64,000 bases of DNA from Owenia fusiformis (lineage: Eukaryota; Annelida; Polychaeta; Sabellida; Oweniidae): NCBI GenBank assembly GCA_903813345.2, contig CAIIXF020000009.1, positions 1,302,001-1,366,000 on the forward strand. Reading direction: 5' to 3'. The notes under the pieces were generated by a model, which worked only from the letters and a program-made list of their open reading frames with translations, made no database searches and was not told the origin of the DNA. Position numbers and translations under genes: made by a program. Shown here one piece after another: positions 34,391 to 62,808 of the stretch; the first letter of the stretch is position 1; the number at the start of each line of letters is the position of its first letter.

Positions 34391-35175
34391 AAGTCCTGAC
34401 TATTTAATAAAGGAAAAAACCATCTGTTCCTTTTATTTCAGTCAAAAAATGAAAAAATACCATTGTGAAATGTACTTTTAGAAATGATTTGCTTTATTTC
34501 AAATAGACAATTTGTAAATTGTACAACTACATTTACTTTATATTCGTACATCAGTATTAATATTTAAGCTTTTGCTGCCAATATAAGCTAAACAATCTAT
34601 CAAAAATTTAATTTGTCGAGTATAGAAATTTCTATACGAGAAAAATGGCTGAATGTACAGACATTTGTATATCAGACTTAAAATGTCCCTATAGAAATTT
34701 CTATAAGAAACAAGCTGCCCATTCGTATAGAAATTTCTATACTAGAGAAACGGATGCATGTGAAGAAAATATATTATGTCCGATAACTGTGCATGTTCGT
34801 ATAGAAATTTCTATACGAGGCAAGCACTGTATAAATATTTCTACAGCAAACCCGATAACTACCGGCATAGAAATTTCTATACAGACAGTATAGAAATTTC
34901 TATAGCTTATCCGATAACTGTCCGTATAGAAATTTCTATACGAGGCAAGTCAACAATGTATATAGAGATATCTATATTGGGGATATGTCTGCCTGTATAG
35001 AAATTTCTATAGCATACTCGATAACTGTCATATAGAAATTTCTATACGAGGCAGGTTTACAATGTATGTAGAGATACATGTATCTATATTGGGGATATGT
35101 CTGCCTGTATAGAAATTTCTATAGGATACTTGATAACTGTCTGTATAGAAATTTCTATATGAAGCAAGGTTACAT
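34391..35175 (+). repeat. Left inverted repeat with palindrome array
   Basis: It has a ~230-bp non-repetitive outer part, then ~550 bp of subrepeats. The 16-bp perfect palindrome TATAGAAATTTCTATA, or a one-base variant, occurs about eleven times (34621, 34691, 34725, 34799, 34865, 34889, 34924, 34996, 35031, 35108, 35143). Between copies lie CGAGGCAAG, GATAACTGTC and the variant palindrome TATAGAGATATCTATA. Confidence 0.9.
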
Positions 35176-35300
35176 ATAAATACAAAATACAAATTACATA
35201 CAAAACAAATTACATAGAAATATATTTACAAGAGAAATGGCTACCTGTATATGGATGTCTATAGAATACTTGGTGACAAGACAGCCACGGGTAATAATAA

Positions 35301-35440
35301 TGCCTTGGTCACATTTGCCCCGAATTTTACTACGGCGCCCGGCCGATTGAGTATTATGTTCAAAATTAAATAGAATTGTAAACAAAATACTCAATCGGCC
35401 GGGCGCCGACCGATGGATTGGAGCAAATGTGACCACGGCA
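35301..35440. mobile_element. GC-rich foldback element
   Basis: Outer arms TGCCTTGGTCACATTTGCCC (35301) and its complement (35420-35440) enclose inner arms GGCGCCCGGCCGATTGAG (35334) and its complement (35386-35407). It is nested just inside the left inverted repeat. A related half, ACTCAATCGGCAGGGCGCC, lies near 47125-47146. Confidence 0.75.
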
Positions 35441-36933
35441 TAAGAACAAAAATATCTATCCTTATAAGTATAAAAGAGCTCCAATGACTTCTTAATTATA
35501 AACATGTACATTAGACAAAATGGCGGTCTGTGTAAATCTGTATGTTGTTACAAATCACAACCATAGTACTATAATTATAGGTTGCCTCTTTCAGAAAAAG
35601 AGCAGAAATAGAAACAGGTTTTTACTTTTACAGAAGGACTGTCTTCATAGAAATATCCACATGATACAAGAATGTGATCCGTAAAGAAATGCCTATATTG
35701 GTTGAAATACTTGTAGTTACCATGGGTATTCTTCATAAGATTATCTTAAAACATTTTTCAATAATGACAATTACAATGGAAACAACGATGCATCTCGCAT
35801 TCATGCTGCATTTACCTACTGTTATCATTCTTATAGCTTATAATTAATTTCACTATATTATATCCAAGATGAACAATTAATGTCATGTTGATATTTCCAA
35901 GAAATAAAAATTGACAAGTTATTTTACACTTTATAACTACTACACTAGATTAACCAAGTCGTTTTTGCCTTAGAATGATCAATGTTCACAATGACCAAAT
36001 CAGTTATAAATATATCTTCTAACAAATGCAGTATGCACAGAGTTACCTGATTTAAAATTGGTCATTTATATGATCCTACTACGCAAAATATCAGCCTATC
36101 GTCACTTCCAATATCCTGTTAGAAAACTGGTATATTACAACGAGATATGCGCATCATATCACAATGATGTGGAATGTTGCAATATTCTTGCACTGCTTTC
36201 AGAGAAATAGACTGATTGATATGCTCTCGAATATATGCTTTCAATATTGCAAGATAGAGTACATAAATCAGATTTATGTATTGATATAGGAAAATGAAGT
36301 AAAAAATTAGATCAATATAAATCTGGAGATTGATAATAAAAAGTATCCAAATGTCCTTTGTTAGATCATATGGTATAAACTGTCCCCAGGGATGAAAATG
36401 AAAGCTGTCAGGTCTGCAGCGATTCACTGAAAAATGAGGAAAAAGAATAATTAGAACGAATAGCTTCAGCAAGTGCATGGGTGTGAGGGGCTCCCTTTGC
36501 AACTTGTTATAGTATATTGGGAAATGCAATTCTTCATCAATTTAAAAAACATTGGAGCGAATTCAATGATTCTGATCATTATTTTTATAATAACATGTCT
36601 GTAACAATTTAAATTGACAATACAGAATTAATATTATGAAATTAATGTTAGCTTTAAAGCTCTTAATAAGTAGTCTTCATAATAGTTATCAAGTAATATG
36701 AAGTTTACCGATTTTCTGCCTCAACTTTGTCTTTTTTCTTTTCCCTTTCACATTTTCCTCAGAACAGGGCGGCCTTTTATTATCTTTTTTCTGAACTTCA
36801 CCTAAAAAAACATGCAATTTTTTATTGATTAAATGTTTATTTTGACAACTCACACATTGTATCGAATATTTGTTTCTTTATGCACTGAATCCTCGACAAA
36901 GTTCGTTGAAATGCATTCATTTATTGACTGATG

Positions 36934-38073
36934 CTATATTTGAAGTTGTTTTAATTTGTACTCATCACGTGACAAATCCAATTGAAAGAGAATTTTTTTA
37001 CTTTTATTGATACTGTTGGTCTGCTTTGCAACTGTTTTGCTTTGTCCCACTCTTCCAAGAGATTGCTTCTTTCTTTTGGCAGATTTGTCTGGAAGCATGA
37101 TTGTAACCATGATTATGCAATTCAAATTATTTAATAGTAAATTAATATGCAAAACAAAAACAAACCCTTGCACATTGAAATATCATGCCAAGTTCTCATT
37201 TTGATTAACTTTCAAATGGTTAGGACGATATCTATACAGCCGCAAGGACCCTAATCCCTTATGAGTATAAGTGCCTATATTGTAAGAACGTGCATTTTTT
37301 ATTCATAATGGATCGATGTGCACCTGGTGTTTCATATATGTGCAACCCCTCTAAACGCTTACATGTAACATTGCCAGCATGTCATGATACATACAATTTC
37401 TTATGAAAAGTTATATAAGAAAAAAACACGAAAAGATACATGGTATCGAAGTATGTGGGTATGAGGTAATATTTATGGACCCTGTTCAGTAATCTTTTAA
37501 TTTTGTCCGTTTCCCATTTAAGTGATAACGCTTAAAGGTTTGAACTCTGCCATGATGACAACTGTTACCCACAAACGTTGATACATTGTCTTATTTAACA
37601 AATGATAACCGGATAGACGTGGCGATGCTACACACATGGTTTCAGAGGGGCTACTAAAATACCCTGTATTAATGAGAATACTCAAACTGCTGGGATTATC
37701 ATTTTTGTTAATACGCTGTCTAAGCAAAATAACAAGTTCTTAGCAAATGATTAAGTATCAAAGTATTACATCCGTTACTCGGGATCTGAAATTTGGTAAG
37801 GTAAATTTAGAACAGATTTGAATACATAAGAGGAATCAATCTTTCGAAATATTTGATTTTAACATTTTCAAATGAAAACAAATATGAATTATTCTTTCTT
37901 TAAAGTTACGTGATGCAGTTATACCTCCTACGTGATAGGTTACAATCACGTGTTATAGAGAATCACAAAATACTTTTGAAATATATGATGTATTGATTTA
38001 ATATACCTGTTCCTTGTGGTTTGTCTGCCTTTCTTTTAGCAGCTTTTTTAGCAGTCTTTTTACCCACCACAAT
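36934..38073 (-). CDS. Transposase-like gene exons 9-10: basic tail
   Basis: Exons 38073-38007 and 37088-36934 encode KKTAKKAAKRKADKPQG and DKSAKRKKQSLGRVGQSK, nuclear-localisation-like sequence. The stop is TAG at 36934-36936, with AATAAA nine bases beyond. A Lys-rich frame at 36801-36709 and an open frame at 36426-36119 also have good acceptors in matching phase, so alternative 3' exons are possible. Confidence 0.65.
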
Positions 38074-41000
38074 CTAAAAAGAAAGTCCATGGTATAAATC
38101 AGATGACAATAAACGGGTTCCAACAATCATTACATCATGTAACCTAGTATGGAACGATTGGACTTTAAGGAAGATGTTTTGAATGAGATGAAATAAGAAA
38201 TGTTTTATGGCAGAAATAGTTTAAACCATGTTCTCATTATGCCAGATATTATTCTGAAATTCAAAATTATCATATTCAAATTTACATTACACAGGTATAC
38301 AAATGAAGGTTATTAAATCGGAGGTTTAGGATACAAGGTTACCCCGGTATATATTGAGTAGGAGAATACAATATATTTACCCTCTGGATCGAGGGTAGAT
38401 TTATTTATTTTCCCAGACATATCAAAAACCGAGCTCTAAATAACTGATTTTTTCCGTATATGTACATTTATTTCATACTTGAACGTGTTATAAATACATA
38501 AAGCAGCTTTGTAAACACTTATATTTTCATCAGCGGGTAGATATAGCTATACGTCCCCCTTTGAGCGGGCATATATTTCATCTGTCCGCTGACGTCAAAA
38601 TCGCCGTTCGCATATTGCTTCATTTTTGTAACATTCGCATAATGAATGTAAACAATAATGGAAAAAATGCAGACAATCGCGATCTGCTTGATGGTTTATA
38701 GAAGAGAATGGGCGTACTTATCCCTGTTAAACAAAGATTTGAGAAAATTAACTTGGATGGATATCTGACCCGGCCACTGCCAAGAAAACAAAACTGGACA
38801 TGGCTATTCTAAAATAATCTTTACGGTTGGATGGACATTTTCTGAACTCCGGCCAATTTAACAACGTGGCCAATATTGGTATGGAATAAACAGATCATCC
38901 TATAGTCGGTTCATGATATCGGGATAATCCCAATATCCTGAATCTCATATACAGTACATAGGTTAATCTCTATATACATGTACATTATATTTCTGCGTGT
39001 TATTCACATACGTACATTAAACAGTACTCCTGAATATAGTTAAAAACAACCTTTGTAATCACACCACTCACCGATGGTTGTTCTTGTTCTATTTCCAACA
39101 TTCTGGCAATTTCGATGGGAATGGCTGAATCTATGTTGGTATCCTCCTCAGCTGACAGTTTTGGTAACCCATCAAGCATCCACTGTTTTTTGTTTCTCAG
39201 TAGATATTGGTTCACCAATTCATCTGATGCGAGAAGGGCTCGTACATGCTTAATATACTTTTGCCACCAGATATATTGGCTGCCGTCCCTTTGGTCACTG
39301 TATAGTGGTCGTAAAAATCTTTGGTTGCGTTGTATTCCATCAATATTCAATTTCTCGAAATTTGGTGTCTGTATGTCCGGTTCTCCCTGTGGAAGCGTTT
39401 TTAAAATTGAGGGTGCCTCAACCCATGGTTGAGTATGGAGCCCCTTATAAAGTAATTTCACGCCATTTGACGTCTTAATAAATTTAAAATGCAATGGCTT
39501 GGTGTGATGTTTTATTTCATCGAGGTGTGGTTCTATCCACTTACGGAAATTATAGACGACGTTTATTCTTTGCCCGTTCTTCAATAGCGAAAGAAGATCA
39601 TCCATCGTCTCTGCCTCTTGCTGTCTGAGACCATCAGCAATCTTATGGAAATATGAGTCGATGTCCTCATGGGTGTGACCCACAATCAAAAATGATAGTT
39701 CAATCTACAAAGAAACCATGTGTTCACTGTTAAGAACATTACTTACGTAAGAGACAGGATAGTGTGTACGAGCAACTGTTAGTTGTTGTTCTTTGAACGT
39801 GTTGTAATGGCGAGATAGATGTTGAGTAAAGATATCGATATTAGCATGTGTAATTTTCAAAACAATGACAATGAAAAAGAATTACGTGAAAATGAGTCAC
39901 GTTTTTATCTACTGTTCAGGGATTGGAATTATTATTTCAACGAAACTCTAATTTGCTGTAATTCAATAGATGCAGATGCAGAACATGCAATAAAATAAAA
40001 ACTACAAGCATGCAGTTGCAGTGACATAATTTTTGTGCGAGTTCTCAAATGCATAGTTTTACTGATTATCATTGGGGGAAATAGACATCTTGATATTAAA
40101 GCTCTATGAAGCTGAGGATAGAAAATGAAGTCATCTTTGGTAATCATTAGTTCGTTATTGAGTTAATTACCTCTTTAAAAACGCCATTCCTAATAAGGAG
40201 TTCACAGAAACCAAGCATATAGCGATTTTTGTTTTCCCTCCAACAGTTGTCAGCTTGGAGATAAAGGGTTGGTGGCAGTTTGTTACCCTAAAAATGAACA
40301 AAAATTCAATAACATGAAACGCTACTATATTAATCAGGAGGCCGTTTCTCGAAACTTTCGTTATTAACGAATCGTCATTTCAATTGTTCAAAAAGTTTTT
40401 TTCTATTTTTCGAAAGTTAACCATTTGCGATGACGTCATGATTTCTAACGATTTATTCGTTATCCATGACTGATTTAACGAGAGGGTTAGGGGTCTCGTA
40501 ATATAACGATGTTGTATCTAAACAAATTATAAACCATTAAAACACATTTTTTATATGCTGATTAAACAATATAATACTATCTTTATATAATATAGTTTCA
40601 GTTTTAAGTTTAAAATAGTTTATTTTTGTGTCACTGATATTACGATATACAATGTAAAATACATAATATGCTTAACGAGCACGACAACGAGGTGGTTCGA
40701 GAAACGGAATTTGCACATTTCGTAATCAACTCGTTAATTTCACGATTCGCTATTAACGATTTGTTAATAACGAAAAGTTTCGAGAAACGGCCTCCTGTCA
40801 CGCCATCGTTATTTATAGTCTAGCTTGATGCCCTATGCCACTAGACATTGATTTGATAAAAAGATAAGAAAAAGGCCACAGTCTTGAAGCAAGACCGAGT
40901 AGTTTGTAAGAAAACATGTTTTCATTTCATTAATTGGTTCGGAAAACCTACATACCATTTTCGCGGCGATGGTCTGCAACACAAGGAGAATAACGTTGAC

Positions 41001-44000
41001 TGATAGGTTGGAATCATGCGGGTATTCACAGGTGTCAATGAATGTCTTGAACAACCTATGCCCGTGAGATATTACACCAGTGATATGCGTCTTAAGCAGG
41101 TCTCCCTGTCCAACGGATTTAGCTTTAGAGCCTATAAGATGTGGAAGTGAAGTTTTGCCTGAAAATATAAACAAATCATGCGAATGCTAAATTCAGAGAT
41201 ATATCTTAATTGGAATCTGTTATTTGTATTACGACCCATTGTTACTTATATGCATCGGACAATAACAAATACCGTTACACCTGTATGTTTGTTTAGGCGT
41301 CGATGACGCAAAGCAATATAGAGTATATTGCCCAGAAATATATACTATTTTTAAACGTTAAAAATTCTTTATAGCTTTCCGACAAGAATTTTAAATACGC
41401 GTTACTTCCAACGAAAATGTTAGTTCTCGACTAAAAGAAAAACTTGGACATTCGCATATACGAATGCAGCGGTAGATAATGAAAAACACCTTCAATTAAT
41501 TTACCTTGATCCATGCCGTCAAAAATAATAGATAGGTACTGTGTCGGTTCATTCCTCGATAGTTCCCGTTTGTTATAATAATATTGCCTCTCCATCCTGT
41601 AAAATAAATATAAATCCTTAAAAGGATCAAAGCTTTTCTATGATCCCAGTTTTGTAATGTATATTTGGGCCTCGCCACAGGAAAACCAGTCTCATCAAAA
41701 AATTGAAATTGTGCTACAGAGCCAAAAATGTGCCAAAGATTAAGATGAAAACGTGCTAAACTCAAGTCCGTCATTTCTGTATCTGTAATGAAAAATTGTC
41801 AACACATAAGCCATGGCTCATTTGAAAGGTTTCGTTGTGCTTTTTAAGATAAACAAAAAACAAAGCATTGAAAAAATCTGTAATAAGACCCCTTTTCCTG
41901 TGGCCTGGATCATTAAGATTTATATAAAATATCATAATAATTATATCTTATCGTATTAAATATCATAGTTTTATATTAAATCGTGTTGTTAAAACATAGA
42001 CTAACGCTGTGGAGCATATGGATTTGGCCCATGGTATTACGAAAATTAAGAATATGCGTTTACAATAGTTGAGTTTAATATTTAAGTACTAATAACTAAT
42101 AAACACCAAAATTGTCTGTGCTCGTTACAATGAGATAACAAAGCTTGTTTATGTTTATGGTTAAAAGCGTGGGGTGGTGGAGAATGGGTGGTTTTCGAAC
42201 AATAAAATACATAAAATCATCCCATGTACACACAGTGTACAGAAAGTCGGGTAATCAGAGATTATACACATAAAACATGTATTAGTTCTTTCGAATGAAT
42301 TAAGTACGTAAAAAGTCCTATACATCAATGTAACTAAGGTTATCATTATCAGAGATTGTTATGTGTGAAACGCATACGCTTAGACCAGTAATTTTTCCTT
42401 CAGTCATATGAAATACATTAATGGATCAAGTGTTATAAAGGGTGTTTACTTCCTTTCTATTAATCAACTGACTATTTTATAATTTGTTTCCTTCGAATAC
42501 TTTATTCTATTATCAAGAGAAATTGTGAGAGTATGTTCATCTTTTAGAAGTTGGGCCTGAACTTACTCAAACAGAAGGCGTGTGGTATGTCATGGTCGGT
42601 GACCATGACTGACCACTTACATAAATATTTCGCCTTGGGTCATGAAATCTTAATTGGAAGATGGTATCTTTTAATTCAAAAATAACATGAAGTTTAACAA
42701 AACCACACAAGATGTACGAAACGTGTATATGTTCTTCAAATTCAAATGTTGCTACATATGACCATGGGTCGGACTTTAACCATGCACTAGCGGAATAAGC
42801 CTTTGTCTTTGGCCGATACTGATCACCCCACTGTCAGATAAGAAATTACGTCATCACTTATTGCGCAGCTCTATAAAACGTCCATAAGTGTGATATTCTT
42901 AAAGAGAGAATCAGAGATAGCAATCAGGCCCAACATAAAATATTTTGGAATATTTCTGGCAAATGTCATTCCTTGTCATATCTATTTTCTAAAAATCCTA
43001 AAAGTGTACACTTCATTTCACTTAAACAAAGGTGTTTAACAATGATGAATTATTTTTATATAAGAATGGTTACCATTCTTATTATTTGGGAGCATTTAAA
43101 CTTTTTTCACCCATACTGAACATGATGCAACAATCATGTATGTCATTGCTAAAAAGTGGTACTACTTACATTTGCCTATTGTTATGCTCGTTCAGTGACT
43201 GTTTAATCAGTCTTCTTCGTTCCGGGTTCAGCGTTCTCTCAAGGCGTCTGTTTAGACTCACACATTTATCACATTTAGTGAAACAGTTTGTCTGAAATAA
43301 AAACAACTTTTACTTGATATATATTCATTGATGATTTCGCCTTATTATCATATTATAGTGAAGAGGCTTGTCTCACCATGGTAAAAAGGCCAAATATCAA
43401 ATGTTTAATAAAGAAGCCGTCATTTTCCAAAGTACCTGTCCACTAGTGTTTTGAGAAAGTGACCATGCTTTTGGGTGTTTGTGTATCATCAACTATGAAT
43501 GACATCGCTTGACACTTCCTTACTAGTTTTCACTACTTGCAAAAAGCTGCCAATTTTAAGATCTACTTACTCCATAATATCATAATACCTTCAATGTGAA
43601 CTTCAACAGCTATTAAAATGGGAAAATGCCCCCCCCCCCCCTTTGAATATGCCTGTTTAGGCTCACACAAGGGAAAATTGGGTATGTCGTATAAATTACC
43701 CAGTTTTATGTTGCACTAATAACCTGATTATGATGTTTTGATATATTTTAGCTGCGCATATCTGGTTTGTATAACAAGGTAAATGATGACACATGTGAAT
43801 TTGGAGTTTCAGAAAGGTTCTAAGTATTAGTACATTTACATTTATTTGTTTAGATGAATTTATTCACTTTCAATACTTTTCAAAATAAGTATAGATCAAG
43901 TCCTTTAAAGAAGGGTGTTCCCTACGCTAAATTACAATCAATTCTACTTGACACAGAGGCGAGCCAAATAGTGAACTTGAATTATCTTGTATAAAGATGC

Positions 44001-47000
44001 ACTTGTGAGTGTTATTTGAATTTAATAGGCTAAAATAGAGTAAGCATAATTGAGGACCATAAAATAATGAGTATTTGATAGTCTAAATCAAACAATCTGT
44101 TGGTGGTATTTTAATGTTGATGTACAGGGTGTCCGAAAAGTAAAGATACAAATACTAAAATTTTAAGAGATTTAGGAGTTTTGCAATGAAATTGCTACAG
44201 ATTGTAGAGGAACATTATTACAATGTGTCTACCAACTCTCATCGCATATAGTCTAAACCGGTTAAAGTTACGGTTGTCATGGTTACGGAGGTGAGAGGTA
44301 TGTGGAGCGGTACCAGATCATCGCTAAAATCTGATTAATTGCTAAAATATAACCATTTGATACAGTCTTCATCATTGTGTTTTCTATCAGTATTTTGTTT
44401 TCTTGAATATTGTATTATTGTTGCTATTATGTTCTCTTATGTATAATGGTGTCATTGATACACGTCAGAACTATGTTATGTCATCAGTGTAATCAAAGAA
44501 ATATTATAGAAGTGCTTAAAATAAAAGTTCCCTGGGTTAATGAGGAAAGTCAATATTCCACCTCCACAAAAATACACCAGTTCACAAAGCAAAGCCAACA
44601 AATCTCAAAATGGAGTGTCTTGACACTAAACCTTTTTTTACAATGTCCCATATTTACCTGAAAAAGGCCCCTTTAGACTTTTACCTTAATGAGCATCCCA
44701 AAGCGATATTTGTTAGAAGTTCAGTATTCAAATGAGACTCAACTAGAAGCGAATGTTATCAGCAATCTGAAGACAAACAGCAGCGGTTTTGTCCGGTCTT
44801 TGAATCTCTGGTCAAGATGCACCATGAACATATAGATAATGTGGGGAAAACATAATACTGGATTATAGTAGTCATGTTAAATGATAAAAAAATATTAGAG
44901 TACTAATCTTCATGCTGTTGTGGCACATAATTTGATGTTTTATAGGAACAAATGGGTTGAGTGCCATGATGATAGGAATAGGAAAAAGATTTATAAAAGA
45001 CAATAAAACTGAATTGTGACGCTGCTCCATATACCCCCAACTCCCGTTACCATAACGACCATAACCTTTTCATTTTGAATCTATATGTCATGACAGTTAC
45101 AGGATATATTGTTGAAATGTCATTCTACAATCTGTAGCAATTATATCTCACAACAGGTAAATCTATTGAAGTTAGAGCATTTGTATCTTTACTTTCCGGA
45201 CACCCTGTATTTTCTATTATTATTACGTAACATCTTTTAATTAACGCATTATAATATCGTGTAACTTCTATTGTAGTTTATTATTTAAGTTTAGTTACAA
45301 TAAACTATTTGACCACATAGAAATAGTTTTGCATTATATTTATCATATTTTGCATCATTGAAAAATAGGCAGTCAAAAGAGAATGTTGGCTAAAAAGTAC
45401 GTATAGCTGCACTCAATAAAAGTTTGTAATTATACAGAGTTATATTTCGAGAACTGTTAACAATCTTCGTTTGGTGAGTAGACGTATATTTCGGCAAATC
45501 ATGCCCAATTTTCGACGTTGTGGTCCGAATGCACTTTTCATCGGCGTTATGAATTCTATTTCATTTTTTGGGGTTTGGGTACGGATGCAATTTTCATGGA
45601 AATGTGGGTGCATTCATAAACATTTCATATTATACATGATACATGCATGGCTATAGTTATCCAGCCATAACGGTTGAACAATTAGAGCATAGACGTATGT
45701 ATTTGATGTTTTAACGATCGAAACTAGTGTCAAATATCGAAGTTTCGATATTGCTGCTGTTAGAATAGGTGTAACAAAGAGGGCCGCCCGTGTTGACATT
45801 CATTTTCATGTGCTATTTTCAGATAACCATAATTCATTCCACACATCGTCTTCATATTTCGTTTTTGCACAAAAAGTCAAAGTCTACTTCGATTTTTTTT
45901 GTAGGTCGGTAATTCTTTATAATGTACGAAAAACTAGAATATTCAGTGGTCTACTTTTTAAAATTGCAAAAATACAAAGTACACACTGACTTTAAGTCGT
46001 GATGGTATAAAAATACATGTAGGGCTTTTTAGTGAAGTTAAATGTTGCATATACCTATGAGGAAATGAAAGCATTTGTTTTTAATTCATAACATGAACTG
46101 GTTTCATATTACACTTACCTTTTTAATCTTGAGATGGGGAAACATGTCGGCCCACATACGCATAAAACTTGTTTTGCTGAAAAAGTTTCGAAATTTTTCG
46201 ACTCTTTCGCTTTTGTATCGAAGGTACAATCCCTCTTTCCTCGTCTTGTAGGGAAGCATAATGTCTGCTGAATCGGGCATACGGTCAGCGTGATAAGTCG
46301 CATATTCTTCTAACCAAAATTTAGCATCATCATAGAGTGATGTTTTACTTCTGCGCCTTTGATAACCTGTTGATAAAACTCCGTTTTCGTAATCCTTCAC
46401 TGATTTATAATAGAATCCTTTGCTTATATAAAAAAGTTGGCAAAATGCTTTTGAACATATTCCCAATCCACTTTCAATCATTAAAAAATATTTGCCATTG
46501 CGATGTTTTGCGTCTCTTAATTTCTGAATCAACCATTCGTGTCTCGATTCGAAATCCTTCGTCCATAAAATCTCCCTACATCTACGAGCCATGTCCATGT
46601 TCAAATTCAAATGACACTTTGAACTGCAGCATTTCTTCATATACTTAATCTGGAGTAATGAACCGTGTCTTAAGCTTTTTTCCAATATCCTAGAAACCGT
46701 TCTTTCACGTTTTGGGGCTAAAATGAACAAAATTTTATACATTTAAAATATTCAGCTGGTGATTGTGTCATTTTGTGTGATTTTTAACTTTAACTGATAC
46801 ATTTTCGCTGTGACTTTGTTTTCTAATTAAACACGCAATCTGACGTCTAATATCACTGAAACTTTACAAAAATACAGATTGAAATATTTAACGAAGAATT
46901 GATTTGCATTACATTTTATGTTAGATACAGTGTATAGTGTGTACTAGATATAAATGCATTAACATTTTAAACACAGTTATGAATGGGGGTCGCTAATTAT

Positions 47001-47930: not shown

Positions 47931-48910
47931 TTTCAACACTTTCTATGTCGACTTCTGATTCGTTTTCGAATTTCCAAAGTGTCCAAACTATAGATTATTC
48001 CGTGTATTCGTCCTTCATTAACTTATTTAGTTGGCATATAACGTCAGTTACAGGTAAACAAAAGATTCACTTGCGCACGATGTGTGGACACAATTATTTT
48101 AGTTTCTGGGTGACTTGTTGGCTCTTACCCCGAGGCTATGGAATGTCATGCATTTCACGACTGGTATGCCTTATCCAATTGGTTAACTTGATACGTGTAT
48201 AGTATTTTACAATCTGCAATACAGTAAAACCTGATTAATCTGAACGCCATCGGAACGAGTTAAAGGTGTCGGATTAGACAGGATTTCGCATCTTGAGATT
48301 CTGGATTTGGAAGGCCAGTTGTGATTTAGACTATTGGATTTTCTCTTTGGAAATATTGACACAAAAATAAACAAAAGCTAAATTAAAACCATTTGAGCAA
48401 TGTTATGCAAAACATGTGAACTATTTTTGAAACAGTTTGAGTAAGACAAGCACATGTTTATATGAGTCACATGAGTGTTCAGTGTTCAAGTTAGGAGATG
48501 TTTGAATAAGATAGGTTTCATTGAAATGAAAGTAAATGGTTAAGCAACGGGGACCAGAGAAAGTGTTCGGATTTGAAGGTGCTCGGAATATCCAGGTGTT
48601 CGAATTAACAGGTTGTACTGTGTCCCCTCTTTACTTTTGAAATATTGTTTTGAGATGCTAGATATAGTAACCTATCGTTTCAGTTTACAAAAAATATCAA
48701 CCTCTCAAAAAGTAATTATGTGTCCGGAATTTCTATGCTAAAATGTTCGATTCTAAAACCAGATGATCAAAATCAAAATCAAGGTCTCATAAATATAGCA
48801 AAGCTGTGTGTTACGTTTGTCAGGGTTGAACGGTTGTGTGACTATCTTCTGGCCTTAGCGTCATAGTTTATAGCATCAACGTTTTTACAATCTGATATAC
48901 TTATACACGC
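47931..48910. promoter_or_regulatory. Divergent spacer between the two element genes
   Basis: The first coding exons of the leftward and rightward genes are 980 bp apart, so both promoters should lie here. A MITE occupies 48222-48620. I cannot identify a TATA box or binding sites with confidence. Confidence 0.45.
48222..48620. mobile_element. Pogo/Tigger-like MITE
   Basis: Ends CAGTAAAACCTGATTAATCT and the inverted TTCGAATTAACAGGTTGTACTG fit the pogo-type CAGTxxAACCT...TAATTCGAAC pattern. No transposase is encoded. The TA target duplication is only clear on the left. Confidence 0.65.
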
Positions 48911-49954
48911 ATGCAGACAATTGCAATCGCTTGCAATTCCAACATGGCTTCGTTTCTGAATGATTGGCATATGATTGAAAGCGGTGGTAAAATATACCTT
49001 CAAAAAGAGTTAGAGACGGAACTCTATGAGATAAGGGGTGTTTACCAAGCAAAATTACAAAAGCAGGGCGAATATATAAAGGTTAGTAATTTCTATTAGA
49101 ATTGTGCAAATCGGGTTGACTTTGGAGCAATTCATGGGGAGTAAGGCCTCCATCCCTCTTTTCTTCTAGGCTATTTATTAACCTGTAAACATAGAGAATA
49201 TAAGAGAGGGGTGACTTTCTCCCCGTGGTTCAATGAGAAGGAGTTCGCATAAAACTTTAGATCATGTAAATATTTATATTCTAGAAATCGGGTGTTGACA
49301 ATTGTGTCCATAAGACCTTATCATATTCTTCCAGTATCTGCAATTTTTGAGGGGAACTATATGTTGACCAAAGTATCAATCTCGCGAATTAAAACTAGAG
49401 GAAATATGGCTTTTTTGCATACATCTGTAATTTTATAACCATTTACAATAGGTATGATTTTTGTGTTTGGGAAAATAATCTCTCCTTATGCACAAATGTA
49501 AAGGTGCACACTTGTTTTCAACATATATTTCAATTACAGATGCTTATTTGGGACCATGTCCTCGAGAAAGCAGCAGACACAACCGTGCATCTGCGGTCCT
49601 TACAAACCGGAAAGAACGATTTTAGCAAAAGGTTTCTAGAGGCGGCAACTAGAGTGTCAAGAACGTTGTTCTGCAATCTTTGGGAGGAAACCGGTCGGAA
49701 ATGTGAGTGTAAATACAAGTAAAGTATAAACTATGTTGCAGTGGCTCGTTATTTTGCTATTCCAACTATGTTTGAACACAACTTAAATATTGCTTGTTAA
49801 AGTTCATTAACGATATGGCGTTCCAATTTAAATGGCGTTCTGGATTTGATGTGTCATAAAATAGTATATTGCTTTTTCAGGTTTGCCCGATCCATTATCA
49901 CAACAGCAGCTAAGTTCCTTTGTAGACGATGCTGATACATGTAACTTGGATTTG
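48911..49954 (+). CDS. ParB-like gene exons 1-3
   Basis: Exon 1 starts at ATG 48911 (a second ATG is at 48944) and reads MASFLNDWHMIESGGKIYLQ after that second Met. Exon 2 (49540-49702) reads KAADTTVHLRSLQTGKNDFS, and exon 3 (49881-49954) is short and acidic. Phases 0, 1, 0. No named domain. Confidence 0.72.
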
Positions 49955-52900: not shown

Positions 52901-55900
52901 TACTAAAAGATGAACATACTCTCACAAGTTCTCTTGATAGTAAAATAAAGTATATGAATAAAACAAAATATAAAATAGTCAGTTGGTTAATATAAAGGAT
53001 GTAAGACCTTTTATAACATTATTGATAAAACTATGAGGAATGAGTATTAAGTAAAAGACTTTATCATTCTTTACAAAATTAGATTTAATAATGCATTGGA
53101 CCGATGGCGTTTGGCATTGCTGAATTTTTCAGAGGTGATCAGGTTCATTATGCATGGACATGTTTTAAGTATTTGGGAGATAATATCTGTCGGTCCCCGT
53201 ACATTGCGAGACATAAATACATGTCAAGGAGTTAAAAATATGTATGGTTACAAGTAAATTATAAACTATCGCATGTATCGTTAAAAGTGATATGACTGAA
53301 TTTTGATAATATCGCTAGGCCAATAGTATCAAAGATACCTAATCATGATTTATATGAAGTCTGTTACAACAACAGGGTACACCTAAATTCATGTTAAATT
53401 CAATTTTGGTCAGTCATACATCTAAGTTTAATTTTATCATTGGCTTCACTCTTGTACATTAGTTAAGCCATCGAGACGACATTAAGGCCAATCACATATC
53501 AAAACATCAAATAAACTTCAAATGTCCACTGTGATGACACTTTCAGACCTATTGCGGGAACAAGAGTAAATTATGTTTTAAAAACCAGTAACGCGATCAA
53601 TGCCAATTCAGAATTGCCGAAATCGCTGTTCCCTCTTCAAAAGAGGAGACGCGAAAATCTTTCCTTATAAGGTCAAAATATTTCCCATGATGCAGTTCGC
53701 GGAGGAACAAATTTATACTTCCTTGTTTTCCCTCATAGGTTTAACATGGGGATTTTCACACCTATTTTTCAAACGATATCATGTATATTCGTTCATATCT
53801 CCGTACGAGGGTACAGAAAAAAATATTATAAACGATTGATCTCTTATTAATCTTAATATAACAGCTATTTTTTTCATTGTATTGATTCATAGCGTGGTAA
53901 AAACGATGATTGAAAAGTGAGAAAATATTCCGGAAGAGAAGGTCACATGATCAGTTGACTAGTCGCCATATTGGAAAAAATAATTCCATTCGACTTTCAA
54001 TACTTTCATGCCAATCTTACCGCACTACAAACTGCAACATCGATGCATCAACTGAATAAAAGTATTCATTTTCAAATTACATCATAGAGTTACGTTGAAA
54101 ACGTTTATTGATTAAACTCCGTATACTGACTATTAAAGCAATGACAAAGAAGAATACTTCCGATGTTGTCATTGTTTTATTTAGCGTGCGGGTGTAAAAA
54201 CAAAATTGCGTAATTAGTTTGATTTAGAACTTTCGGGTCACGCAAATAGCTACGCGAAATGCATAGTGAGAAAATATTGACCAATCAAATGTTGTCCTTT
54301 TTTAGTGCTTTTTCAGTACATATTTGCGAACGTTCTGATCAAAGAGCGAATCACGAAATGTAGAATTAACTTGTGGACCAGAGTGGATCAGTTACTATGA
54401 ATAATTGCAATAAGTAGAGCTATTAGTGTAATATACACTGATCACATTTCAACACGATTTAAAGATTTTTAAGATAAGAAGACTACCATGAAAATAGGGA
54501 CATACAGGCATTTTATTTATATACGTTTCGTATTAACTTAGTCTTGCTACAAGACGTTGGATCCTCGCTTATATATTTCACATAGGGAATGTGTCATTGG
54601 TCGCTCGCTTGTTTTGCGATCGTCTATTTGTACTTTTTTACTTTTATTCCAGACATCTCCAGTCTCAAAAGATAGGCAAAGTCAACGTTCGATCAACCCC
54701 GTAGGGGCCAGTGGAGAAACAGATCTTGCGGTCAAGGCGCAACTTATTGGTATGCTAATAGTTTCATTTTATTTGATGTTAGCAACGCATATAATGATTA
54801 ATCAACTCATCGAAATACGTATACACTTTACAAATACACATTGGTATTCCTAAATGATTTTAAGATAATCAGAGAGAACACTTTTTGAAAAGAACGATAA
54901 CATTATCATTACTGTATATTTGTACTGAATCAGTTTTTGAAGTTTTATCTCCTTGAAATTTTAACTTCGGTTATTTCCCATTTGGTCAATGCATACCATT
55001 GGTCTTACACATTTGAAAATAGCTGCCTAGCTGCAGTCTATAATAATTTTGTTCAACTCTGTTTAGGTGACTTCATCACAGTCCCAATTAGATGTTTGGA
55101 GTCTCCATCTGATGTGAACCGGGTACGAGACTTGCACAGTTCACAGGTGGAAAAGATCAGAAAATCAATTGAAGCTAGGCCAGATGCCAGCTTCACCATT
55201 ATGCTGGGGAACATCACATCATCTGTTCCCATAGACAAAGCAGCTGTGGAGGAAGGGCTGCACACGGTCGAAGTGATAGGAGGGAATCACACTTTGGCTG
55301 CCCTCAAAGAACTTCATTTGAAAGATGGGTGCAGTGATGAGTCAAAATTTAGCAAATGGTGCATTAAGGTATACTAAATTCTAAAAATAATAGAGTGAAA
55401 AATGTTAACATGTAAATATAACGTGTATTTTATTGATTTTATTCATATTTTAAATGTTAAAAGAGTATACTGGTCTTATAGCTGACATATGAGATTTAAT
55501 GTAATCCACAGGTGTACTGGGGCTTGTCAAATACGCAGATCTTAAAACTTGGGATGGATCACAACGAGGTGATGGGGACACATCTGAAGAAAACTTATCC
55601 CGATATGGTTAAGCTTTTCAGAAGGCAGCTAGTGAAGATATTGGATACGGATATAATACCAGACGTATTGCCAAAAGAAGTTAACACGTTATGGCGGAAT
55701 ACGTTATGCTCAATTCTACGGATAGAGGTAACACTATGATTATATAGCTACCGTAAACGACAATCTTAATTACAATAAAAGATTATGGTATCTAAGATGT
55801 TGCACTCATACTTATCTATTATTTTAATAACCAATAAAAATGCATTATGCAACCAATATTCAGTATTATATGTACAGGTAGTGTTTTATGTTATAATTTA

Positions 55901-58900
55901 CAATTGGATGTTGTATTTTAAGGACAAACAGAAGCTCGCAAGTAGTTACCAAAACTACACGCGAATTGCCGAGCTACCCAATGACAAATGGAACGCTGTC
56001 AATACGTTTATGAACAAATGGGAGAGGGGGGAAATTAAATCACAACCATCTGGCCAAATGAAGCAGACATCAATGATAAATGTAACAAAGGACTGCTGGC
56101 AACACGTTGTTAAGACCAACAATGGTGAAATGACATACAAAGAATTCCTTGCTGTCAAGAAACCGGGCCAGAAAAAAAGGTTGGTGTAAGTAGTCTCATC
56201 AGAATGCAATAATCTAGATATATGGTGATTTTAACCTTGCCAGAGGATATAAGTATAAATCAAACATTTCGTATACTGTATTTATAAGTCCCCTTCGTGT
56301 ATCTAGCCGCGGATTGTAAGCGCAAAGCACAATTTGTATCAAGTTCATCGATGTATCCATGTACAAGGTGGTCAGAAAATGGAAACCCTGCATTTTCCTT
56401 ATATCTTTGTCACTTTAAGGTTTTACTTCCTGATATATCACACATTTGTGTATCATTCAATTTCCTACCACCCTACAATATTTCATGACCATCAGACTGA
56501 TAGTCACAATTTTACAGCACTTTGAATAGCATGCTTCAGATTTGGCCATTGTAGCGCTGTAGGCAAAACAGCACAGTTGTCAATGATCCGAATGGCCTGA
56601 ATGACACAAATGATCTCACTTTTGAGGTTTGCAATTGTCCTGAGGTCATTCTCATAATTATACTCTATCTCTGTCATATCCCAACAGGAAGGGACAATTT
56701 AGACGATGAATACAGGTTTCCCCACAGCGCAAAAGTGGCTACTGGGCATGTTCTTTAAAGTACTGTAAAGTACTGTAACATTGTGACTATCAATCTGATG
56801 GTCATGAAATAAAGTAGGCTGGTAGAAAATGAAATGATGTACAAATGTGTAAAACATCAGGGAGTTATTTTTCAAAATGACAAAGATATGAGGAAAATGG
56901 TATTAGGGTTTCCATTTTTTTTGACCACCCTGTATTTCAGATCAAATGCTTCTTTAGCGGCACAGTATAGGATGGAAGAAGGCCTGGATGACAGTCGCGA
57001 GTGTATTGATAATGGCAGACAACTGGTAAATGTTATCAAGTATCCTAGCATACCATAGTGACAATTCACAACCGGACAAATTATGCTGGACTTTTCAATT
57101 TTTTTTACTGAAACGTCCTGTTTTTATTCTTATTAATTTAAAGATGCACACAAACACGAAATAGTACTATTGGATCGGTTGTTCGCATGTTGAAATTTAG
57201 GTTTACTTCCGAGGTCTGATATAACGGTTCTCCATTAATATTGAATTAGTTCTTGTAAAAATCGCATCGAACACTCTACCTTTACTTCTTGTGCATTTTA
57301 TGTTTAGGACAGTGTTATTATTTTAAAACAGACAAATGTAATTGGAAAGTTTAATCATGGACTTTCTGTACCGGTATGTCCATGGTTCAACAAGATAAAT
57401 TGTATTTCCTTTTATGTTGATAAGCACAGCTCGGTACATAGACCTTCACAATTGTAAAATGCATATATTTCAGAGCGACTACGTCAATCAATCAATCGGG
57501 AAGGGTGCCACAGATAAACAGGTGCATGATATTCAGTCTGAGCTAAAGAAGAAAGAAGCTACCGTCAGAAAGGTAAGCATTGCATGGTAAGGTACATATT
57601 CTTGAAATCCTTTTAAAAGATAGGAGAGGAAAACTAACTCTTAAACCTATACATGTTGTGAGAACAGTGTTTACTTGCATTAATATATACTGTATTGTTA
57701 ACAAGGCTAACGCTATATGCAATTTATTAGGATAAACATTATATTTACAGTAATATGCAAGTTCATCTCTCTGGTTTATATACATCGAAACACGCTTATT
57801 CTTTACTTCAGATTATATGTTTCATTTCATCGAGACTTTCGACTTTTATCTCCTAGTCTTTTTCAAGATTCTAAAAATATAATACATTTACATATTTTAC
57901 AGTTAGAGGAACAGGTAGATGCAGCATTAGCAAGGGCGCGTACTGCAGAAAATCTAGCCAGTGAGATGGAACTCAAGATGAACAAAGTCAAAGACAAGTA
58001 TGAAAGGGTATGGTTAACCATTATTTTACGAAAACGTAAGGATTCATGCAAGAATGTGTGCATGTTTGATCCTCAGGGGTCGATACCATGTCGATGGCTA
58101 AACATTAAATTTCCAATTTATTAATTTGTTAGATACGTCTATTTAACTATGGTTTCAAAACTGTGGTACAGTATATAGAATCAATCATACAAAATAAATA
58201 ATCTAAAATGAGTAGATAAAAGTTAATATTTCTTAATGCATTCTCTCTTAAATTGATGCTTTCTAAAAATTTACCATGACAATTATCAACATATCTTGTT
58301 TTGTCATGTTCTGCCCTCAAACGTGTACATTGACATGTTCATTATTTACAGCAAATTGATGAACTAAAAAGCCATCATACCGCAAAGGAGGCAGAATTGC
58401 GTAGGAAGCTGAAGGAAAAGTGTGAAAGTATGGAGAAGGAAGCTATACGCTATGCACAAACCGTGGCCTTGTTAGAGCAGAAGCTGCGACAGGTAATTGC
58501 CTTTTACTTCCTATGTCATTTTTTGATCAAGTAAGGGCCAACTAGATGTTATGAAATATATCTTCTGGGACGAGGGGTAATTGTAGTATTTTCCCAAAAG
58601 GCAAACGCGGAACTAATTCGTATGCCATGGGATTTTCGTTCAGATTGTTCTATACCTGACTGTATCAGGTATGATAACAAGAGAATAAATAAAAGTAAAA
58701 TATCTACTCCACAATCCCCCTACCTCCTGTTTGCCTGGACTTTTTGGTCTCAAGTAGTACTGCTGAACTTCTGATCATTAGCTTTTAATATATCTCATAC
58801 AATTTACTGTTAGGTATACCTTGTTCCAAGTCTTCTCAAAGCAAGGTGGCCAGTAGGTCAGTTTAGTAAGTTGCTTTCTTGTTTGCAAATACTTTGTATG

Positions 58901-61523
58901 ATAATCGTAATAATTTAATCCTAAAGTTCCACCCATCAAACAGCCCTCCACAGCAATTGTCATTATCATTTATGATACTTGATTCTTGAAGTACTGAACA
59001 ATATTATGAATTTAAATCAATATGACACTTGATGGGCCATTTGCTATAGCATGTTCAAGGTTCAAAGTTCAACATGACAATCAACTCTTGTAATAGCTTT
59101 GCTCATCTAAGTAGTTTGTTTGGGTAGGGGTGGAAGTAGGAGTGATTTTGTAAATAACTACAATCTCGAAATGTTACGTGATGTTGATAAGTTCTGTTTT
59201 GACCCAAACGGAAGATTGATTTTTGTACTTTATTAGCTACATATAATTATATTAGTTGCATAGATAGAGGTTATTGAAGTTACTGTGTAAATATCATACT
59301 TTAAAAGTGTCATTTGCAAATTAGTTTAAAAATACATTCTGATGACCCGTTTTATTCACTGTATATAAATGGAATTGTTATTCTTGATCAATAACCCAAT
59401 ACACATCATTTCTTAGGTATAACATGTACACGTGTCTCCTGGCCTATGACATTAATTTATCATTTTTAACTTCCAGATGAGAGAAAATACAACCACCCCC
59501 ATCGAAGATACTCTTACAGTCACTTCTATTCCAGAGGATGATGATGCCCTATCTGTAGAAATACCTTACGGTAATAATCGAATCACTTTTCTGATATTCC
59601 CCAAAATATTTGTCAATGAAACATGTGACGACAAAAAAGACAATGGGTGTTATGAAGCATGCACAAGCCAATGGTTAGTCATTTGGTCACGCAGCTTCGA
59701 ATAACTAGACTGGTGATATATCTGATTCATAAAACACATGCAAATATATACTTTGTGCTGATAATGTAGTCTCAGGGAGAATTGTGTAAAATATATCAAC
59801 ATTTCAATCACAATAATACTGTACCCAGGAGCAGCAAACCTGCAATTGAATACGTAACAGGTTTATATGATACGGTAACTTAACATTCAAGAGTAGAGTA
59901 ATTGATGCTTTATTATGCTTTATTTACTAACTGCATCAATTGTGCATGCCTATTACATGTGATAATAACAATAACAATACAAATCATATTTTACAGAGTC
60001 CCATAGGAAACTAGGCCAAACTAAGAGAAACGTCCCTGGAGAGATATATGGGACATGTACGTGAGTTTTATTCGTTCATTCAGAACAACGAATGTCTTTG
60101 AATCATAATTCTTTAATTTAATATTTTCAAAAATGATGATATTATACTAACTAGTATTTCGATGAGTTGTGTGGGGATTTTTCTTGGTTAGCTCCGCGGA
60201 AAATGTCACATTGATTTATTATTATTAATTTTTTGTTACAAGGTGCGCCAGAAGATGCTAAGAGGAGGCGAACAGAAAAAATTGACAAACAGGTGAGTGA
60301 ATTTACGTTTTAAAAGAAGAACTTAAGGTCTAAATATGTATTCTGAAAACCCTCTAGCGTTGGAAAACGTTCACGCAAATTCGTTTTTCTCAATTTAAAA
60401 TCAGTATATAATAAGAATACTTGACTAAGCAAGCCGCATAATAATTTAGCTTATTTCGTATATTACAGCTATATTAACAAAATATGAATGTCCGGTAAAT
60501 AGTGTAGCTGTTTTTATGTGTGCTCATTCATATGTGATATGGTAAGCCTTATTTCACATATGTAAAATGAACAATCATAAAATGCAATTTCATTTATTTA
60601 TAGGCTACAAACAGCAGCGCGGAGCCACAGAGGAAAAGATACAGAGATGTATGTCCATATTTAGTTTACTCTGTTAATTTCCTTCAATTAATGATGATTA
60701 ATGTTAAGATTTACACCAACAAATTATGTAGAATGATGAAAATGTATATAATGATCCTTGATATAAATAACAGAACACAAAATAATCTTGATGTTGTATA
60801 TTGATTAAAGGTTAAATCTGAAATCATTAAGGATTAATTTCAAGGTTAAAATCGCATTAACTATAACACTTTTAATGGAATATTTGAAAACACTTTCGAA
60901 CGCGTGAAATCGCGTCCATAATTTAAGACTAGTCTACTAGAGATTGAAATATGCTGCGATCTATATAACTTTTAAAAATGATATTTTTTATAATAACTTA
61001 AGTTCATTAACTTAATAGTAAAATGTTTTATTATCGATGTTTCCCTAATCATCCAACTAGCTTTATCAAGATTACATTTAAAGTGGAAGTACAAAGTTAT
61101 ATTATTTATGACGTAATAAATAATAAAACATTTTACTCTGAAATTGATGAACTTAAGTTAATATTTATATATCACCAGAGTGATAAATCTACACAGAAAA
61201 TATATTTTTTATATTTATAGGTCATCTGTGCTAGGTGGCAGAGCGAAGTCTTTCTTGGAGTAAAGGAACGTGATACAGTATTTTATTGCAAGCAGGCACT
61301 TTCAACTATCAGTGATTTTAACAGTCTTATGAGGATAACAAACAAAATGAGAGTAATTAATAGAGGGGATTACGCCAAGATTGGTGAGGAAATACCCGAT
61401 AATCATTATTTTGTCGTACAAGATAGATACCTCGATGCTCCAAAGAACAACTTGGTTATTCTTTTAAAAGAAAGTGAAGAACAAGTGTTATCATACCTCT
61501 CGTCTCTTGTAGCACAATTTTAA
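48911..61523 (+). CDS. ParB-like nuclease-fold protein with coiled-coil tail, sixteen exons
   Basis: Exons: 48911-49081, 49540-49702, 49881-49954, 54653-54749, 55067-55368, 55512-55727, 55923-56185, 56941-57025, 57474-57572, 57903-58007, 58352-58492, 59477-59570, 59997-60056, 60243-60292, 60604-60648 and 61221-61523. They total 2268 nt (755 aa) with all phases consistent. Residues ~170-254 look like a ParB/sulfiredoxin-fold N-terminal domain: DFITVPIRCLES, a helix with SQVEKIRKSIE, and the hallmark VIGGNHTLAALKEL (GNH at 241-243). In bacteria this fold binds or cuts DNA and nucleotides. Residues ~475-572 are heptad-like coiled coil. The last exon (101 codons) is an unrecognised domain. AATAAA lies at 61558-61563. 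Its role with the neighbouring transposase-like gene is inferred from layout only. Confidence 0.8.
49955..54652. other. 4.7-kb intron 3 of the ParB-like gene
   Basis: It holds a dispersed repeat copy at 52720-52995 and a perfect hairpin at 52530-52572 (TTACTCATTCTATG and complement). A possible isolated mariner-like end, GGGTTGTCCCAGAAGTAATG, lies near 50581. No further exon is recognised; short open frames lack motifs. Confidence 0.5.
52720..52995 (+). repeat. Dispersed repeat, copy B (inverted relative to copy A)
   Basis: It matches the reverse complement of 42440-42710, including AAGGCGAAATATTTATGTAA and ATACCACACGCCTTCTGTTT. It lies in intron 3 of the ParB-like gene. Confidence 0.8.
54653..54749 (+). 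CDS. ParB-like gene exon 4: Ser-rich linker
   Basis: TSPVSKDRQSQRSINPVGAS then GETDLAVKAQLIG, phase 0 to 1. Acceptor TTTATTCCAG, donor TTG|GTATGC. Confidence 0.75.
55067..55368 (+). CDS. ParB-like gene exon 5: ParB-fold core
   Basis: This exon carries the whole recognisable fold: the first strand FITVPIRCLES, helix QVEKIRKSIEARP, and strand-turn-helix TVEVIGGNHTLAALKELHLK. G-N-H replaces the bacterial G-x-R/G-H-R at the active loop. Phase 1 to 0. Confidence 0.85.
55512..56185 (+). CDS. ParB-like gene exons 6-7: helical extension
   Basis: Exon 6 (55512-55727) reads VYWGLSNTQILKLGMDHNEV onward. Exon 7 (55923-56185) reads AELPNDKWNAVNTFMNKWER, a tryptophan-containing helical region similar in style to the region after ParB cores. 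Exon 7 ends at GGT|GTAAGT in phase 2. Confidence 0.78.
56364..56932. mobile_element. 569-bp MITE with ~170-bp inverted ends
   Basis: The left end, CAAGGTGGTCAGAAAATGGA, and the inverted right end (complement CAGGGTGGTC...) are flanked by TA at 56362-56363 and 56933-56934. The arms continue through CATATCTTTGTCA and CATGACCATCAGA..GATAGTCACAA. It ends eight bases before exon 8. It is Tc1/mariner-like in target choice and has no transposase. Confidence 0.88.
56941..58492 (+). CDS. ParB-like gene exons 8-11: coiled coil
   Basis: Exons 56941-57025, 57474-57572, 57903-58007 and 58352-58492 encode Lys/Glu/Ala-rich helices. Examples are HDIQSELKKKEATVRK, LEEQVDAALARARTAENLAS and KEAELRRKLKEKCESMEKEA. 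This probably mediates oligomerisation. Exons 9-11 are phase 0 with clean AG/GT boundaries. Confidence 0.78.
59477..60648 (+). CDS. ParB-like gene exons 12-15: acidic then basic linker
   Basis: Exons 59477-59570, 59997-60056, 60243-60292 and 60604-60648. Exon 12 is acidic (IPEDDDALSVEIPYG); exons 13-15 are basic (HRKLGQTKRNVPGE, EDAKRRRTEKIDKQ, EPQRKRYRD), suggesting a nuclear signal. Exon 13 must end at ACAT|GTACGT (60056). The nearby ACGTGAG donor would put a stop in exon 14. Confidence 0.65.
61221..61523 (+). CDS. ParB-like gene exon 16: C-terminal domain
   Basis: It has 100 codons plus TAA. It opens VICARWQSEVFLGVKERDTV and includes MRVINRGDYAKIGEEIPDNH. Compact mixed alpha/beta composition; no family recognised. 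Confidence 0.75.
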   Translation, partial: VICARWQSEVFLGVKERDTVFYCKQALSTISDFNSLMRITNKMRVINRGDYAKIGEEIPDNHYFVVQDRYLDAPKNNLVILLKESEEQVLSYLSSLVAQF

Positions 61524-61557
61524 TGTCTTTGAACCTCTCGCCAAATTTTAAATCACA

Positions 61558-61563
61558 AATAAA
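61558..61563 (+). terminator. Polyadenylation signal of the ParB-like gene
   Basis: AATAAA lies 35 nt after the stop codon, well placed for a 3' end. Confidence 0.6.
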
Positions 61564-61799
61564 ATATTTGGCACCCTCTCACAATCAAAAATCTATGACT
61601 TAATAAAAATCTTTGCCCAAAATTACTCACATAGTAGCAATGATGCGCCTAAACGGCCTAATGAAACAGTTACTTTACAATGTTCTTACCAGATAAACGG
61701 TGAACTCGAAATAATTTACTCTTGATTTATGTAGTCATTTTTATAATACTTAATTTTTACATTTTAAATACATTGTCTGAATTGATGTTTTCTGTAATT

Positions 61800-61945
61800 T
61801 TTGGCGAGGTACTTGCCTCGCCTGCCTCTTGCCTGGCTACATGCCAGTGTATATTTGGTGAGGTAGTTGCCTCGCTTGCCTTATGCCTGACTATATCCCA
61901 ATGTATATTTGGTGAGCTAGTTGCCTAATGTCTGGCCATACCCAA
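61800..61945. repeat. ~58-bp tandem repeat, three copies
   Basis: TTGGTGAGGTAGTTGCCTCG and neighbours recur three times between the ParB-like gene and the right inverted repeat. Confidence 0.75.
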
Positions 61946-62029
61946 GAAAATATGTATTTGAAAATGGTTTATAAACAATTTGTAAATTCCAAGACATTTA
62001 TAAACAGACGGTTTTGCTGTTTAACATAG

Positions 62030-62808
62030 AAATATTGTAACATTCTATATACACTGTGAGCTTGCCTCGTATAGAAATTTCTATACGAATAGTCATCGAG
62101 TATGCTATAGAAATTTCTATACAGGTTGACATTTCCCTAATATAGATATCTATATACATTGTTGACTTGCCTCGTATAGAAATTTCTATACGGACAGTTA
62201 TCGGGTATGCTATAGAAATTTCTATACAGGCTGACATTTCCCTAATATAGATATCTCTACATACATTGTTGACTTGACTCGTATAGAAATTTCTATATGG
62301 ACAGTTATCGGGTATGATAGAAATCCTAAAGTTACAGTGAATCACTCCCGTAGTAAAGATATTTCTTTATACATTGTCAGCTTGCCTCGTATAGAAATTT
62401 CTATACGAACATGTACAATTACTTTAGACATTTCTCTACATGCATACATTTCTAGACTTTAGAAATTTCTATACGAATGGGTAGCTTGTTTCGTATAGAA
62501 ATTTCTATACGGACAATTTCCGATCAGCTATAGACATTTCTATACATGCAGCCATTTCTCTTAAATAGAAATTTCTATAACTGACACATCAACTTTTTGA
62601 TATATTTTTAGCTTTTATTGGCAGCAATAACTCAAATATTAACACTGGTGTACAAATATAAAATAAATGTTGTTATGCAATTTACTAATTGTCTATCTGA
62701 AATAAAGGAAATCATTTCTAAAATTACAGTTTACAATGGTCTTTTTCTATTTTTTGACTGAAATAAAAGGAACAAATGGTTTTTTCCTTTATTAAATAGT
62801 CAGGACTT
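62030..62808 (-). repeat. Right inverted repeat with palindrome array
   Basis: Reverse complement of the left repeat. About ten TATAGAAATTTCTATA palindromes or near copies lie at 62073, 62106, 62175, 62210, 62282, 62388, 62458, 62493, 62530 and 62563. The outer ~230 bp end in GTCAGGACTT at 62808. Confidence 0.9.

Follow-up and report, generated by a model that had tools for sequence, protein, structure and literature searches.

A giant DNA transposon of Owenia fusiformis with palindrome-array ends, a putative DUF7869 transposase and a tentatively ParB-like second gene

Are two divergent genes between long inverted repeats in the genome of the annelid Owenia fusiformis a mobile unit, and, if so, how would ends lying so far apart be brought together? 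We analysed the 64-kb stretch of DNA that contains them (the window) together with the genome assembly of 498 Mb in 525 contigs. An earlier note on the window, drawn from its letters alone, had proposed a giant, autonomous DNA transposon in which a ParB-like DNA-binding or nuclease protein works with an RNase H-fold transposase. The element spans positions 34391-62808 of the window, about 28 kb, and is one representative of a giant DNA transposon. Its ends are inverted and mostly paired, 4-bp target duplications flank most insertions, near-identical copies are dispersed in the genome, one derivative has an internal deletion, and both genes are constrained. We read these findings as a recently active cut-and-paste transposon of about 28 kb, with gene 1 encoding a DDE transposase and a dimeric protein gathering the ends through palindromes; we judge this reading to be about evenly poised between right and wrong.

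Architecture of the element

The outer inverted ends (34391-34592 and 62607-62808) are 90% identical, both start with AAGTCCTGACTATTTAATAAAGG when read inwards, and palindrome-rich arms reach to about 35174 on the left and 62044 on the right. Two divergent multi-exon genes occupy the interior. Both gene models were built from splice sites and phase, and their splice phases are consistent. The main features are:

34391..34620, forward strand: left terminal inverted repeat, outer part, beginning AAGTCCTGACTATTTAATAAAGG
34621..35159, no strand: left palindrome array; TATAGAAATTTCTATA occurs 12 times, allowing up to two mismatches
36119..47930, reverse strand: gene 1, putative DDE transposase with DUF7869; 12 exons, 948-amino-acid model
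47931..48943, no strand: central intergenic region separating the divergent gene models, 1,013 bp
48944..61523, forward strand: gene 2, tentatively ParB-like; a long part of the protein is helical and probably a coiled coil; 16 exons, 742-amino-acid model
62070..62579, no strand: right palindrome array; TATAGAAATTTCTATA occurs 10 times, allowing up to two mismatches
62580..62808, reverse strand: right terminal inverted repeat, outer part

The earlier note had the two genes starting 980 bp apart with little else between the repeats. The genes and their divergent start were confirmed, but 1,013 bp separate the models and the interior also contains several nested repeats. In the central intergenic region the terminal palindrome was not found at up to two mismatches. 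Inverted-repeat elements are nested in the introns at 42446-42688/52761-53004, 44123-45209 and 56391-56899; the nested element at about 44125-45205 is missing in copies C2a and C2b, and so was either inserted after that line split off or lost there.

Dispersed copies and target sites

The terminal 230 bp have at least 25 matches in the genome, of which 22 make up 11 inverted pairs with spacings of 20.6 to 72.5 kb; the other 3 are unpaired. The pattern that the earlier note had named as speaking against a transposon, repeats mostly alone or unpaired, therefore did not occur. When up to three mismatches were allowed, a pattern of the terminus was found at 33 places, more distant termini included, compared with 5 for a reversed control. 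Five other family-1 copies were compared whole with the window copy over collinear blocks of at least 300 bp (two rows at 79%, in which array repeat aligned with array repeat, were excluded), and these blocks are 93.3-99.8% identical. The near-identical copies are dispersed, each with new flanks. Copy C2b is internally deleted and has lost exons 5-9 of gene 1 and exons 5-11 of gene 2; copy C4 lacks about 310 bp, a loss that takes in the splice donor of gene 1 exon 4 and the last 20 bp of that exon.

A 4-bp target duplication was found in 10 of 12 insertions (CTAG, AAAA, ATTA, CATT, CTAA, AAGA, ATGA, TTAT, ACAC and ATAA), always at the same offset outside the AAGTCC...GGACTT ends; a thirteenth insertion, C7, gave an ambiguous reading. 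For comparison, 13 of 132 combinations of left and right flanks from different insertions agreed at one or another of the offsets tested. Four family-2 copies have the AAGTCC terminus with a 4-bp duplication as well, and one of them, C1, is also compatible with a 6-bp reading one base out. The C4 insertion interrupts a reverse-transcriptase frame: its flanks joined with one copy of the duplication give a 199-codon open frame, and joined with both copies they break the frame. The earlier note had suggested looking for target duplications and empty sites. The search for target duplications succeeded for most insertions but not for the window copy, and the search for an empty site came back negative, with no place in the genome spanning the joined flanks of copy C66. 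Judged from the genomic record, the element is a mobile one, and the earlier description of a giant, autonomous-looking DNA transposon holds. As a side observation, the relative at C7 lies directly beyond a splice-donor-like site that follows cysteine-rich coding sequence of a host gene (L053, about 6800-6980).

Palindrome arrays at the ends

The inverted ends carry palindrome arrays, as the earlier note had described. The window contains 22 sites of TATAGAAATTTCTATA at up to two mismatches, 17 of them exact, and all are confined to the two arrays. Of 20 gaps within the arrays, 11 measure 35-36 bp and 7 measure 66-77 bp, the others being 108 and 23 bp. Genome-wide the exact 16-mer occurs at 281 places, compared with 3 for its reversed control; among the 50 listed of these 281, 48 fall in clusters of at least three, 42 lie at ends of the elements described here and 2 are solitary.

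Similar arrays are found in relatives. The relative at C12:19325102-19359675 has sites of the form ATAGAA-NN-TTCTAT, mostly ATAGAATATTCTAT, with 11 on the left and 9 on the right. In C7:28720679-28748380, the most divergent relative read, the 14-bp core ATAGAAATTTCTAT is unchanged at both ends; the inverted ends of this relative are 92% identical and its outermost sequence has drifted. Because the palindrome persists while its surroundings change, it is best read as the candidate binding site of a dimeric protein of the element. Exact TATAGAAATTTCTATA was also seen outside the listed copies at C1:25432805-25440171 and C2:2103123-2118224, each with three clustered sites and one more 7 or 15 kb off; these are possible shorter or older members.

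Gene 1 encodes a putative transposase

The conserved motifs of gene 1 lie in three exons:

41505..41596, reverse strand: exon 5, first conserved acidic motif, FDGMDQ
40171..40287, reverse strand: exon 7, second conserved acidic motif, LQADN
39072..39704, reverse strand: exon 8, GHTHEDID (candidate site of the third acid) and the C-terminal part of DUF7869

Exon 8 matches Pfam DUF7869 at 7e-24. The N-terminal part of the model protein has cysteine-rich motifs, and the first exon (47841-47930) is uncertain. A confident predicted model of a gene 1 relative, P0006, has an RNase H core with the conserved acids at the expected places, and each of the 50 structural matches listed for it is a DDE transposase or an integrase. 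Because of this modelled core and these matches, gene 1 is very probably the element's transposase, in agreement with the RNase H-fold transposase proposed earlier. The likeness extends to the Mos1 mariner transposase and to retroviral integrases, which have an RNase H-like core with acids at places corresponding to those in the model, although sequence identity is 5-15% among the matches listed. Mariner elements target TA, and neither the gene 1 motifs DGMDQ, LQxDN and GHTHEDID nor the 4-bp duplication fits mariner.

We found 250 homologs of gene 1, and the named ones among the 120 listed come from molluscs, nemerteans, lancelets, echinoderms, cnidarians, sponges, a hemichordate and plants. 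In the open-licence literature searched, DUF7869 is named in no paper, and a search for the GHTH motif with transposase gave nothing relevant. DUF7869 exons at C3:4182401, C7:31730025 and C12:2984133 show 36% identity over the same matched range and have no gene 2 match nearby; they perhaps represent a separate DUF7869 transposon family.

Gene 2 is tentatively ParB-like

Two parts of gene 2 bear on its relationship to ParB:

55067..55368, forward strand: exon 5, region with EVIGGNHTLAAL, which weakly aligns to the ParB N-terminal domain
55512..56179, forward strand: exons 6 and 7, helical; the P0001 counterpart weakly matches the helical region of Spo0J/ParB/Noc

Among 7,997 candidates scored, two homologs of gene 2 were identified: P0001, an O. 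fusiformis protein whose pieces at C12:30.33M are identical up to introns, and P0002 from the lancelet Branchiostoma belcheri. A search with a three-row alignment of gene 2 returned P0001 alone; coiled-coil words may have filled up the list of 7,995 candidates. The sequence GGNHTLAA of gene 2 stands in register with GERRWRAA of bacterial ParB/Spo0J, and the helical part of the predicted P0001 model matches Spo0J/ParB/Noc, with marginal scores in both cases. The P0001 model is of low confidence (mean predicted local distance difference test score, pLDDT, of 48, with residues 1-123 below 50), so its fold match is a lead only. Exon 5 protein alone gave no match in the PDB, and tblastn gave no phage match. 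Like the candidate target here, parS is a clustered 16-bp palindrome; in contrast to bacterial ParB/parS systems, neither gene model is ParA-like in Pfam scans. The weak resemblances suggest that gene 2 may be ParB-like, and nothing was found that points to a nuclease, the other role proposed for it earlier.

The two genes recur together and are constrained

Exon 8 of gene 1, which carries DUF7869, has 25 matches in the genome, or 23 places once split matches on C3 are merged. A gene 2 match lies within 24 kb at 14 of these: 11 are divergent pairs, the window included, and 3 are degenerate same-strand remnants on C3. Both genes recur between the ends in related copies, a point that the earlier note had wanted checked. 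Of 18 gene 2 matches, 4 have no DUF7869 match within 24 kb. The divergent pairs include distant ones, with exon identities of 56% and 48% at C12:19.3M and of 40% and 49% at C7:28.7M, where transposase identity falls to about 40%. The C3 remnants (C3:8567000-8621000) occupy three places about 23-30 kb apart, where pieces of DUF7869 and gene 2, several with stops, lie less than 1 kb from each other on the same strand; they are either remnants arrayed in tandem or the product of a rearrangement. In B. belcheri, P0002 (LOC109464217) and the DUF7869 homolog P0013 (LOC109464227) carry these LOC identifiers and have the same contig size of 819,786, and because of this the two genes probably stand together in lancelets.

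No internal stop was found in copies C2a, C3, C4 and C66 (941-948 of 949 codons compared for gene 1, 742 of 743 for gene 2), and the exon gaps listed in them are that of C4 and one 3-bp gap in C2a. Between families 1 and 2 the ratio of nonsynonymous to synonymous substitution (dN/dS) is 0.075 for gene 1 exon 8, 0.019 for gene 2 exon 6 and 0.104 for gene 2 exon 7; for gene 2 exon 5, dS is saturated and dN is 0.14. Between the window copy and C2a the ratio is 0.32 for gene 1 (25 changes) and 0.35 for gene 2 (21 changes). Copies C3, C4 and C66 differ from the window copy by 2 to 6 changes per gene, too few for their ratios (0 to 1.06) to be used. Gene 2 is under purifying selection.

A possible mechanism and its alternatives

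In the mechanism that we propose, the gene 1 product, as a DDE transposase, would cut at AAGTCC and join the ends to the target with a 4-bp stagger. Less certainly, a dimeric DNA-binding protein would load onto the clustered 16-bp palindromes at both ends; it would most likely be the gene 2 product, which has a tentatively ParB-like region and a long, probable coiled coil, and otherwise the transposase. The loaded protein would then draw the distant ends together for the transposase, by analogy with the gathering of parS sites by ParB. We hypothesize, on the basis of the co-conservation of the two genes and the weak ParB features, that the palindromes are bound by gene 2 protein, which synapses the ends; of the joint action with the transposase that had been suggested earlier, co-conservation is the only sign found. 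In its fullest form, the proposal is of a new superfamily-level two-component animal transposon in which a ParB-like protein on parS-like arrays clamps or bridges ends 28-35 kb apart for a DUF7869 transposase, and in that form we consider it doubtful. If it is true, a bacterial-style DNA-gathering device has been re-used for synapsis in a giant eukaryotic transposon, and DUF7869 gains a transposase function across annelid, mollusc, nemertean, lancelet, echinoderm, cnidarian, sponge and plant homologs. It would offer a testable answer to how the far-apart ends of giant DNA transposons meet, and the short palindrome, kept even where protein identity has dropped to 40-50%, is a well-defined candidate binding site. 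No animal element with this gene pair and palindrome-array ends was found among the matches listed from the open-licence papers searched.

Several results weigh against this proposal. As a ParB, gene 2 has no Pfam, NCBIfam or PDB sequence-profile match, and its in-register hhalign comparison with the ParB N-terminal domain scored 19.8 at a probability of 0.8%, with 1 of 60 shuffles higher; the ParB-like character claimed earlier thus keeps the alignment and a low-confidence fold match but no profile match. No gene 2 was detected within 24 kb at 9 of the 23 DUF7869 places, the core of the palindrome in the C12 relative, a closer one than that at C7, is changed in its two central bases, and the window copy is, with the 72-kb C12 pair, one of the two insertions without a target duplication. 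The places without gene 2 would suit a transposase that itself binds the palindrome arrays through its N-terminal part, gene 2 being an accessory of the same transposon that acts elsewhere, for example in transcription, in choosing targets or in evading silencing. Binding to subterminal repeats is common among transposases, and the cysteine-rich motifs of gene 1 lie in the N-terminal part; against this, 11 divergent pairs place gene 2 next to gene 1, gene 2 is constrained, and its weak ParB-like features typify proteins that bind clustered palindromes. We hold this alternative to be possible, if somewhat unlikely. That the two genes are ordinary host neighbours, flanked by chance by unrelated repeat copies, is by contrast highly improbable: the window copy has no matching target duplication and DUF7869 genes are widespread, but copies of the entire unit, with block identities of 93.3-99.8%, are scattered over the genome, where they have new flanks and 4-bp duplications. 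Host synteny and chance repeats were rejected because of these near-identical dispersed copies.

The size and long inverted ends would also suit a large virus-like element, either a Polinton/Maverick or an integrated DNA virus. Polintons make 6-bp target duplications, whereas those found here are of 4 bp, and no Pfam polymerase, packaging ATPase, protease or capsid domain was found in gene 2 or in the 10 open reading frames scanned (9 inside the element). Viral contigs gave 33 and 45 pattern-matching stretches, among which tblastn confirmed no relative of either gene. For the reading frames scanned and the viral contigs searched, a viral or Polinton origin was set aside, and we regard it as very remote. 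Another possibility is that the element falls within a superfamily that makes 4-bp duplications and already has a name, so that only the gene annotation would be new. The Sola superfamily makes such duplications, and those of the element fit this trait. The nearest published parallel seen is Sola1-1_Ec32, a giant DNA transposon of 21.5 kb from Ectocarpus that has a ParB-like gene transcribed opposite the transposase (PMC12477816). Its partner is a 1104-amino-acid protein combining ParB-like and DNA methyltransferase domains, whereas the 742-amino-acid gene 2 model has no methyltransferase match in Pfam. We take membership in such a superfamily to be a tentative option, less likely than not to be correct. 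KolobokP elements, for which a table lists O. fusiformis and B. belcheri, likewise have a DDD/E transposase accompanied by a second gene (PMC9587614). There the second gene encodes an enzyme, a His-Me finger endonuclease, and the element has long terminal direct repeats, in contrast to the inverted palindrome-array ends here; Kolobok duplications are described as TTAA-specific and 4 bp long, those of KolobokP itself as 3-4 or 4-5 bp (PMC9587614). None of the 10 duplications found here is TTAA, and the Kolobok superfamily was rejected.

Other repeats in the window

Outside the element, the window contains three tandem arrays. A 9.6-kb minisatellite at 1716-11353 (29-bp unit, about 332 copies, 91% matches) lies within a strongly strand-skewed left stretch. 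The other two are at 16668-17803 (27-bp unit, about 42 copies) and 20188-20669 (33-bp unit, about 15 copies).

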